Below are positions 4,570 through 10,399 of a stretch of DNA of 64,000 nucleotides, piece after piece. Both the position numbers and the translations under genes were made by a program. The notes under the pieces were generated by a model, which made no database searches, was not told the DNA's origin, and saw nothing but the letters and a program-made list of their open reading frames with translations. Location: positions 1-64,000 of the forward strand of contig NZ_VTAW01000011.1 in the NCBI RefSeq assembly GCF_008245225.1, read 5' to 3'. Each line of letters opens with the position of its first letter. The first letter of the stretch is position 1. This DNA comes from Natrialba swarupiae. GTDB lineage: Archaea > Halobacteriota > Halobacteria > Halobacteriales > Natrialbaceae.

Positions 4570-5706
4570 TCAACCGTTTCCGTCGCTTTGGTCGTCGGCT
4601 TCGGGATCGTCGCTCTCGCCGTTGCTCTCGTCGTCTGCTGTCACGTCCGCGATCGTGAACGCGGTTTCGACGGTCTCGTTGTCGTGTTCGATCGGCTCTG
4701 CGCCGTCGGGCTCTTCGGGATCTCCCTCGTAGAGTGTCGCGATCAGTTCCTCGTCCTCGTCGACCGACTCCTCGAGTTCGATCGTCACGTTTTCGTGTTC
4801 GCCGGGGCCGAGTTCGTCGCTCGTCCCGAGTACGGACTCGTTGTCCTCGATGGCGACGAAGCCGTCCGTGGGGATGGCGACGCTGACTGTAACGTTTTCG
4901 TCGTCCGCGTCCACGATGTCGACTGTGGGCTCGGTGTGGAACTCGAGGATAATCGGTTCGACAGCGCCGTCGCCGTCGGTGTAGACGCCGAAGGTCTGTT
5001 CGCCGGGTGACGATCCGGTCGTGTTGATCGCGAACGTTACTTCGCGGGTCTCACCGCCGTCCAGTTCGAGTGCCTGTTGCTCGAGGACCGCGCCGTCGAC
5101 GCGGAAGTCGACGGATTGCTGGGTATCGAACTCCGTCGGATTGCGGATTTCAGCGACGATATCGATCGTTTCGTTCGTCGTGGCTTCCGTGGGGATTTCG
5201 AGGGATTCGACTACGAACGAGTCGGTAAGCGCGTCGTCGTCGGTCGTCGTGACCGTGGCGGTGTCGCTGACCGGGAAGCCGTCCGAGAGATACGGCCGGT
5301 CTTCCTCGCCGTCCGTCTCGTCGTAGGCGTAGGTCTCGTCCTCGGTGGTGTCCTGGTGGACTGTCGCGGTCAACTGGCCGAACAGTTCCGGTTCGTCGTC
5401 CTCCTCGAGTTCGACGGTGACGTTCTCGTGTGTGCCACTCGAGAGGTACTCCGAGACGACGATCGGATCCGTGCTCCCGTCGGTGATCACGACGAAACCA
5501 CCATCGGAGAGAGTCAGTTCGTCGATGGTCACGTTCGTCCCGTCACCTTGCTGATCGTCGAACACGATCGACGCCTCGGGGTCCTGGTCGATGCCGAAGA
5601 TCGCAGGTGCCTGTCCGACGATGATCCCTGCCGCGAGAACGATCGCGATAGCGATCAGGATCGCACCGATGCGTTTTACCGTTCCGAACGTCGATCTCGT
5701 GCTCAT
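4570..5706 (-). CDS. membrane-anchored secreted protein with DUF7282-like repeats
   Basis: A 378-residue protein starting at MSTRSTFGTV. A longer in-frame start exists at 5841 but its Arg-rich leader is not plausible. One transmembrane helix or uncleaved signal (about residues 10-33) precedes a very acidic exterior. Two copies of a DUF7282-like beta module are visible: GGFVVITD...SGTHENVTVELEE near the start and DGFVAIED...GPGEHENVTIELEE near the end. A CARDB-like adhesion domain (DTQQSVDFRVDGAVLEQQAL) lies between them. The tail is Asp/Glu/Ser-rich. It is probably a cell-surface protein. Substrate and partners are unknown. It lies 45 bp beyond the rfcC start and on the same strand. Confidence 0.7.
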   Translation of the reverse strand: MSTRSTFGTVKRIGAILIAIAIVLAAGIIVGQAPAIFGIDQDPEASIVFDDQQGDGTNVTIDELTLSDGGFVVITDGSTDPIVVSEYLSSGTHENVTVELEEDDEPELFGQLTATVHQDTTEDETYAYDETDGEEDRPYLSDGFPVSDTATVTTTDDDALTDSFVVESLEIPTEATTNETIDIVAEIRNPTEFDTQQSVDFRVDGAVLEQQALELDGGETREVTFAINTTGSSPGEQTFGVYTDGDGAVEPIILEFHTEPTVDIVDADDENVTVSVAIPTDGFVAIEDNESVLGTSDELGPGEHENVTIELEESVDEDEELIATLYEGDPEEPDGAEPIEHDNETVETAFTIADVTADDESNGESDDPEADDQSDGNG

Positions 5707-5954
5707 CTGGGGGTGTTGTCGCTCGTCTTCTGGTAGGGACTGGAGGGACGTAAAACGCGCCCTCCGTTCGCAGGATTCGGGCCGTTCTCTTCGATCACCT
5801 GATACCGGGTGGGTAGTTTCGATCGGCCGTCCAATCGTCACCGATCACAGCCGAAACCGGCCTCCACGACGACTCGTTTTCGCCGCCACTGATCCGTCGA
5901 ACCGTTCACGTTGATCCGAAGCGGGTTTAGCCCCGGCTCCCGGAGGATCAACGC

Positions 5955-8684: not shown

Positions 8685-10256
8685 TTATTCGGCAGGCGGA
8701 TCGTAATCCTCGCAGTCAGTCCCGTTGATTTCGGAGTCGCCGTTGCAGCGGATGTTGCCCGGTTCGACGTACGCATCGCCGTCGACGGTCCCATCGTCAA
8801 GGTCGAGTTCCCCGTAATCTTCGGCGATCTCGACGTCTTCTTCGACGACCGTCCCGTCGTGAATGTCGACGTCCTGATTCACCGAGACTGTTCCATCGAC
8901 GGTCGTCCCTTCGATCGTCGTATCGAGGTTTTGTATTGCGTGTACGTCTCCGACCTGGCTGTCCCTGATCGTAATCTCCTCTGCCTCGACGTAGCCGTCG
9001 ACGACGACGTCCTCGAGGGTCGCTGGTCCAGCACTCCCGCCGTCCAGCGTGCTGACGTCACCACTAATCTGACTCTCGGTAGCTTCGACCCCGTTTTCGG
9101 CATCGAGACTGCCGCCGACAGTCGCGTTGTGAAGCGTCGCATCGCCAGTGTCCGGATTGACGTCTCCGCCGACCTCACTGTCGGCTATGTCGACACCGGA
9201 TTGGGCGTCGAGATCCCCGGTGACGTTTGCATTGCGAAGCGTCGCATCACCGCCGGAAGCGTTGACACTTCCAACCACATCACTATCGATAATTTCGACC
9301 CAGTCGTTCGTGGTGATGTCGTCTTCGACGGTCGCATCGGTGAGGACGACGACGTCGTACTCCGAACTAATGCCGCCCTCGACGTCTCCGCTTTCGATTG
9401 CGACTCGATACCCAGCAGTGATTTCTCCCTCGACGTCACTGTTGATCGATTCGACCTCGTTATCGACGGTGAGGTCGTCGTACAGGTCCGCGTCCTCAAG
9501 GTGGGCTTCGCGTTGACCGGTCGCCGCCTCGGTAATGTATCCGTCGGTGACGTTCACGTTACCGTAGGTGTTGACGCTGCCGTTGACGAACCCATCGTCT
9601 ATCATCAACCCATTTACGGTATTGTTGTTCCCGATGTTGCCGATAACGCCGCCGCCACGGACGACGTGCACGTAATGTGGTTCGTTGATGTCGCACTCGA
9701 TAACCTCCTCGACGACGATCACTTCCTTGCCGTCGATCATCTCGGTATCGTTGAGGATCGTCGAGCAGTTACCGGTGACCGGTGGATTCTCCGGCGGTCC
9801 ACTGGGTGGTGGACTCCCACCGTTGCCGCCACCACCGCCGCTCCCCTCGTCGACGGTCAACGTCGCCAGTAGGTGCTGGGTTTCGCCGTCTTCCGACTCC
9901 CAGACGACGCGAATCTCGCCGTCCGGGTTCGTCGGCTCGAGTTCCACGCGTTCGCCCGATCGCAACGCGTCCTCGCTCCAGCCCTCCTCGGTTTCGTTGC
10001 CAACCAGTCGGACCTGGTCGGGATCGAGTTCGTCACCCGCGTAGTTGGACAGTTCGTAGCCGTCACCATCGGCTGACTCTTTGACCTCGAGGCCGGTATC
10101 CGGTGCCGGTTCCGGCGTCTCGGTTAGCCCCATCAGGACGGTCGCGGTAACCGTCACGACCGCCACGGTAATGGCGATCATCAACACGACGGCGATGACC
10201 GGGGAGACCGCCCGTTCGTCTCCCGTCGCGTGTCTTTTCTTCCCTCCAGAAAACAT
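8685..10256 (-). CDS. pilin-like protein with a long beta-solenoid ectodomain
   Basis: A 523-residue surface protein. Residues 14-45 (RAVSPVIAVVLMIAITVAVV...) are the classic archaeal type IV pilin N-terminus: a basic, charged leader, then the conserved hydrophobic helix that anchors or polymerises after prepilin peptidase cleavage. A small beta domain follows (to about residue 135), then a Gly/Pro linker (GSGGGGGNGGSPPPSG). The rest is about 330 residues of short degenerate repeats such as V-x-G-x-V...V-x-I-x-x-S-x-V and ATLRNANVTGDLDAQSGV, predicting a stacked beta-solenoid like polymer-forming (bactofilin/adhesin) domains. Ordinary haloarchaeal pilins are much shorter. The function, adhesion or surface polymer, is inferred. 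Confidence 0.75.
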   Translation of the reverse strand: MFSGGKKRHATGDERAVSPVIAVVLMIAITVAVVTVTATVLMGLTETPEPAPDTGLEVKESADGDGYELSNYAGDELDPDQVRLVGNETEEGWSEDALRSGERVELEPTNPDGEIRVVWESEDGETQHLLATLTVDEGSGGGGGNGGSPPPSGPPENPPVTGNCSTILNDTEMIDGKEVIVVEEVIECDINEPHYVHVVRGGGVIGNIGNNNTVNGLMIDDGFVNGSVNTYGNVNVTDGYITEAATGQREAHLEDADLYDDLTVDNEVESINSDVEGEITAGYRVAIESGDVEGGISSEYDVVVLTDATVEDDITTNDWVEIIDSDVVGSVNASGGDATLRNANVTGDLDAQSGVDIADSEVGGDVNPDTGDATLHNATVGGSLDAENGVEATESQISGDVSTLDGGSAGPATLEDVVVDGYVEAEEITIRDSQVGDVHAIQNLDTTIEGTTVDGTVSVNQDVDIHDGTVVEEDVEIAEDYGELDLDDGTVDGDAYVEPGNIRCNGDSEINGTDCEDYDPPAE

Positions 10257-10399
10257 TTGCTAGAAATACTCTCCTCACTCATATAAAATTGTTCGTTACC
10301 GTGTGCCACTCGAGAGCGCGGAATTCACACACGGCCTCCCTTCTATCTTCTCCGGTTCGGTCGTAACGTTCTCGCCGCCGGACTGCTTACGGCCGTTCG

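Follow-up and report, generated by a model that had tools for sequence, protein, structure and literature searches.

A haloarchaeal type IV pilin with a predicted β-solenoid module

On the minus strand of the window analysed here, a 64,000-nucleotide stretch of Natrialba swarupiae DNA (contig NZ_VTAW01000011.1, positions 1 to 64,000), is a gene whose product opens as an archaeal pilin and continues as a long series of short repeats. Is this protein a pilus subunit that displays a large module, a surface anchor equipped with a pilin leader, or the building block of a fibre of its own? The gene comprises the following parts.

8685..10256, minus strand: whole gene with ATG start, encoding a 523-residue putative modular pilin, in which a β-solenoid is fused to a type IV pilin head
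10209..10256, minus strand: class III signal peptide, residues 1–16 (MFSGGKKRHATGDERA), which the prepilin peptidase is predicted to remove by cleaving just before VSPVIAVV (sequence; matches to Pilin_N and TIGR02537)
10125..10208, minus strand: hydrophobic filament-core helix, residues 17–44 (AlphaFold2 helix 19–44; sequence)
9849..10124, minus strand: pilin head, a β-sandwich, residues 45–136 (phmmer and Foldseek matches to 8fj5; AlphaFold2 strands 54–134)
9768..9848, minus strand: Gly/Pro linker, residues 137–163, 27 residues (sequence, composition; pLDDT <50 at 138–151)
9693..9767, minus strand: cap at the N-terminal end of the solenoid, containing Cys164 and Cys188 (cysteine conservation; AlphaFold2 helix 164–168)
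8748..9692, minus strand: β-solenoid rungs, residues 189–503, about 17 rungs in 17–18-residue turns (repeats, AlphaFold2, fold matches)
8712..8747, minus strand: C-terminal cap CNGDSEINGTDC with Cys504 and Cys515, then an EDYDPP tail (conservation of both cysteines)
10280..10289, minus strand: candidate TATA box ATTTTATATG, whose centre lies some 29 nt upstream of the start codon (sequence reading)

The candidate TATA box is possibly consistent with the gene having its own promoter and a near-leaderless mRNA.

A complete pilin followed by a predicted solenoid

At the N-terminus is a basic leader, read from the sequence, that ends in DERA immediately before VSPVIAVV and is followed by the hydrophobic helix. 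Pilin_N (Pfam PF07790) matches residues 15–89 with an E-value of 3.8e-13 and 50.5 bits, about twice the cut-off of 25.2, and the archaellin/pilin N-terminus model TIGR02537 (NCBIfam) scores 26.6 against a cut-off of 20. The 145-residue chain of 8fj5, the type IV pilus of Haloferax volcanii, aligns, nearly in full, to residues 12–134 (phmmer, E 2.8e-8). This structure is also the top Foldseek match for both of the models that we made, of the 523-residue protein (E 2.7e-5) and of its relative L077; together with 8gi2 it heads the matches to the pilin part of the former, and it aligns with the head of L077 over 118 of 133 residues (VIA Z 10.4). The AlphaFold2 model places the N-terminal helix and the subsequent strands in the same layout as in solved pili. 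Combining a class III signal peptide and an above-cut-off Pilin_N match with a long N-terminal helix and an Ig-like β-head, residues 1–136 are a complete ordinary archaeal pilin, to whose C-terminal end the solenoid has thus been added as a further module. An earlier note had recognised a pilin N-terminus and hydrophobic helix in exactly this open reading frame; the assignment holds and now extends to the whole pilin. Its remark on the shortness of known haloarchaeal pilins is correct only in part, as archaeal proteins with predicted class III signals that can exceed 1000 residues have long been on record (PMC4371748).

Nine open reading frames of the genome carry Pilin_N, and only the 523-residue protein is longer than 320 residues, the other eight being of 152–320. 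The genome also encodes a single A24 prepilin peptidase and yields five matches to T2SSE-family ATPases. The H-domain is near-uniform among the ordinary pilins of the genome, and co-assembly with them is not certain because the helix of the modular pilin departs from it.

Between the pilin (residues 1–136) and a non-pilus module (residues 164–515) is the disordered linker. Within the module, V-x-G-D-V-type motifs recur mostly every 16–22 residues, and hydrophobic autocorrelation at a lag of 35, corresponding to two turns, reaches a z of 3.8 (95% maximum of shuffled sequences, 3.06). The same lag gives a z of 5.0 in the ortholog from the congener G003, and z exceeds 8 at lags 17 and 34 in two relatives. 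The monomer modelling that had been proposed as a check, run in AlphaFold2 on an alignment of eight rows, predicted a continuous solenoid over residues 171–520 (block pLDDT mostly 88–98, with most of the solenoid above 90; pTM 0.65) and disorder in the linker, and so did not yield the disordered region that would have contradicted the earlier note; the model of L077 has the same arrangement, again with a high-confidence solenoid. Periodicity and model both agree with the stacked solenoid that the earlier note had foreseen beyond the Gly/Pro linker, with a length nearer 350 residues than the 330 given there.

Bracketing the solenoid, one pair at each end, are the only four cysteines of the protein. 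Cys164 and Cys188 are invariant in ten family members, and at least 90% of them keep Cys504 and Cys515; the solenoid is probably capped at either end by a disulfide-stabilised structure, whose formation we infer from this pattern. The module is strongly acidic (pI 4.05, 24% Asp/Glu, 2% Lys/Arg). Extra glycosylation was considered and dropped: the solenoid has 8 sequons against 3.4 ± 1.6 in shuffles, but the G003 ortholog has 4 against 2.7.

The best fold matches to the solenoid (VIA) are mostly secreted adhesins and phage tailspikes, led by the autotransporter adhesin UpaB (Z 19.5, rmsd 3.5, 273 residues aligned) and including the autotransporter adhesins Ag43b (Z 17.4) and TibA (Z 16.5) and the adhesin EtpA (Z 15.3). 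For the solenoid of L077, two Caldicellulosiruptor tapirin/adhesin C-terminal domains are matched (Z 12.8–13.1). As β-helices match one another readily, these adhesins lend no more than general support to a role in surface binding. The matches also include PL6 alginate lyases and phage depolymerases, and no ligand-binding site was identified.

In sequence, the Bactofilin family (PF04519) matches eight of the ten family members (best E 5.7e-19); the relative L058 passes the gathering threshold with 68.6 bits, and the 523-residue protein falls below it (22.1 against 27.9 bits). Bactofilin structures were absent from the fold matches listed, the aligned set being the best 1000 of Foldseek. Elsewhere in the genome, on contig C9, is an apparently secreted protein with GGGPPGN repeats (L006:1465-3024:-) that is not a pilin and matches Bactofilin with an E-value of 8.4e-24; it gives the genome another bactofilin-like solenoid, one that is probably extracellular.

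Distribution and a shared carrier head

A profile of ten members was searched against 391 genomes of the class. At E<=1e-20 it hit 96 genomes, a tally that included ordinary short pilins and was set aside; counting long matches only, at E<=5.4e-52, homologs of the same layout occur in 23 of the 391 (about 6%). These have a Pilin_N-type head and, in nearly all cases, the Cys caps, and they vary in rung number, from about five in L083 to about seventeen in the 523-residue protein (L058 and L051 are also long). They are spread over several families of the order, and hosts with species names occur in Halorientalis, Haloparvum, Haloarchaeobius and Halopiger, among them the culturable Haloarchaeobius iranensis and Halopiger djelfimassiliensis. 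Outside the order, no match at E<=1e-28 was found in 393 sampled genomes of the phylum, and a search for plasmid-borne copies with L077 as query found none.

Among three congeners searched, a full copy is present in one only, G003, where it is syntenic, lying between genes for a GNAT acetyltransferase and isocitrate dehydrogenase. Beyond this gene order we found no shared operon or conserved neighbours; close sister species share their own surroundings. Compared with this ortholog, the pilin module is 79% identical and the solenoid 44%, with dN/dS of 0.21 and 0.44, respectively; by these sequence measures the head is conserved and the module is fast-evolving. In the congener G002, at a different locus (L038:9415-9936:-), is a frame-disrupted, truncated remnant of the C-terminal part of a solenoid without the pilin module. 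Within the window, at 4570-5841 on the minus strand and adjoining a replication factor C-like ATPase, is a protein, either secreted or anchored, in which DUF7282 matches twice and a CARDB domain is present; it is likely to be another cell-surface protein.

The same profile search also recovered pilins of about 415 residues that have a closely similar head and, as their second half, an FG-GAP β-propeller. They are found among L070–L075 (for example L070:1465-2769:+, L073:619-1911:- and L074:625-1935:-), and FG-GAP_3 matches the three that were checked, L070, L073 and L074, with E-values of 8.5e-10 to 2.6e-6. On domain matches, archaea thus have modular pilins of a second kind. In a pilin-head tree, whose members were chosen for their similarity to the solenoid family, the solenoid pilins (21) and propeller pilins (5) group together, apart from the ordinary pilins (SH-aLRT 96 in a quick tree; bootstrap 97 and SH-aLRT 69 in a careful one, which leaves the group unstarred). 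The distant solenoid pilin L020 falls outside this group in the careful tree, and a single clade of the solenoid group without L020 is neither shown nor rejected (p-AU 0.52). With moderate support, this looks like a head lineage specialised for carrying large, swappable modules. In another haloarchaeal family is a 481-residue Pilin_N protein (L031:1405-2847:+) with repeated domains of a different type, whose only convincing Pfam match is to the head; it is possibly a third kind.

A broader proposal, which we put forward tentatively and hold to be somewhat doubtful, is that haloarchaea possess a dedicated carrier pilin lineage, of an origin independent of the bacterial system. On type IV pili, it may present exchangeable modules, either solenoids derived from bactofilins or FG-GAP propellers of integrin-like type, and the number of rungs may be adjusted from species to species for reach or stickiness.

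Display on a pilus and its alternatives

The best explanation, to which we give a probability of roughly 0.6, is that the protein is a haloarchaeal modular pilin: a minor type IV pilus subunit displaying an adhesive or receptor solenoid, most likely at or near the tip. The prepilin would be made, exported through Sec and cut by the single A24 prepilin peptidase, and one of the secretion ATPases would assemble it as a minor component of type IV pili, inserted through the hydrophobic helix and Ig-like head. The Gly/Pro linker would hold the rigid, acidic, disulfide-capped solenoid outside the filament, where a stiff rod, estimated at roughly 8 nm from 17 rungs of 4.8 Å each, may touch, and presumably bind, matrix, surfaces or other cells. 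The analogy with bacterial modular pilins favours a place at the tip, and a position along the shaft is possible given the 27-residue linker. The variable rung number among homologs fits, as it would for a display rod. Counting against a modular pilin are the lack of adjacent pilus genes, the patchy presence of the gene among congeners, the divergent helix, the lack of an identified ligand-binding site and the limited tree support for the solenoid-plus-propeller group. Of the roles suggested in the earlier note, the adhesive one, here taken as adhesion or display, is the likeliest, whereas a polymerising solenoid or separate fibre is disfavoured by the Cys-pair caps at both ends and the varying rung number.

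The main rival, itself unlikely, is a pseudopilin-like surface anchor: the pilin part, once processed, would remain membrane-bound or join a short assembly like the bindosome, and the solenoid would serve as a stalk or receptor through the S-layer, never entering a long pilus. In archaea, binding proteins that are not pilins can bear class III signal peptides, as in the bindosome (PMC4371748), and the solitary position of the gene and the helix unlike those of the ordinary pilins of the genome both suit an anchor. A simple anchor would not, however, need the whole pilin head that is retained here and that matches a filament subunit to its last strand, and the head is the better conserved part. 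Very unlikely is a self-polymerising, bactofilin-like fibre, in which solenoids would stack end to end and the pilin helix would anchor the fibre. The Bactofilin matches across the family and the 17–18-residue turns speak for it; the sub-threshold score of the 523-residue protein and the cytosolic location of bactofilins speak against. The solenoid is moreover predicted to be secreted, capped at both ends by conserved Cys pairs and tethered at its N-terminal end to the pilin head, all of which is evidence against end-to-end polymerisation.

An enzyme acting on surface polysaccharides, displayed on a pilin as a lyase- or depolymerase-like β-helix, is likewise very unlikely. The alginate lyases and depolymerases among the fold matches point that way, but such matches are non-specific, the rungs vary from about five to about seventeen among homologs, and what is invariant is not a catalytic set but the caps, glycines and core positions. 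Least probable of all is a DNA receptor of a competence-type pilus. The acidity of the solenoid, although acidic proteins are normal in halophiles, argues against it, as does the position of the solenoid, appended rather than inserted in the pilin sheet as in Thermus ComZ. ComZ, for which such a role has been proposed, is nonetheless a solved pilin-like protein that has a large β-solenoid and binds DNA (PMC6561018).

Should the modular-pilin reading hold, it would bear on a field in which specific adhesion by archaeal pili is largely open, haloarchaeal minor pilins are poorly defined and the solved archaeal pili consist of short subunits. The carrier head with its swappable solenoid and propeller modules would provide a concrete gene list for archaeal pilus-borne adhesins.

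Comparison with known systems

Bacterial modular pilins, bacterial pilin-borne solenoids and long archaeal class III signal proteins are already known. Within the open-access literature, we found no description of an archaeal pilin with a solenoid, bactofilin or propeller module, and archaeal solenoid and propeller pilins are so far undescribed there.

Homologous to the pilin module over the full subunit are the Haloferax volcanii adhesion pilin (8fj5) and Natrinema PilA1/PilA2 (9myg, 8gi2), which end where the linker and solenoid of the 523-residue protein begin. Caldicellulosiruptor tapirins, which are linked to type IV pili, have a β-helical adhesin domain to which the solenoid of L077 is similar (Z 13.1), but are separate proteins without a pilin module. 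Bactofilins and halofilins (PF04519) share V-x-G-D-V-type repeats and a β-solenoid with this family, several members of which exceed the Pfam cut-off. They are, however, cytosolic polymers, whereas the 523-residue protein has a prepilin leader and pilin domain, is predicted to be secreted and pilin-tethered, is Cys-capped and lies below the cut-off.

Thermus thermophilus ComZ is likewise type IV pilin-like, with a large triangular β-solenoid of ~380 residues, and has been argued to sit at the pilus tip (PMC6561018). It differs in being of the bacterial class, in binding DNA and in having its solenoid inserted within the pilin β-sheet; here, a very acidic solenoid follows a complete head.

The closest parallel in architecture is with bacterial modular pilins, which are diverse and include the adhesin PilB of S. 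sanguinis (PMC8179133). As in S. sanguinis PilB and PilC (PMC8179133, PMC9934059), a complete pilin module is joined through a linker to a bulky C-terminal non-pilus module, and, as among bacterial modular pilins generally, many alternative modules are borne on similar carriers, with a display role that is presumed here. The carrier in S. sanguinis is of the IPR012902 type, as opposed to the archaeal PF07790, and the module is vWA or lectin rather than a solenoid; adhesion has been demonstrated for PilB/PilC and is predicted for the haloarchaeal protein. The modular-pilin principle, described for bacteria, would thereby be extended to archaea, in tractable haloarchaeal hosts in which it can be tested.
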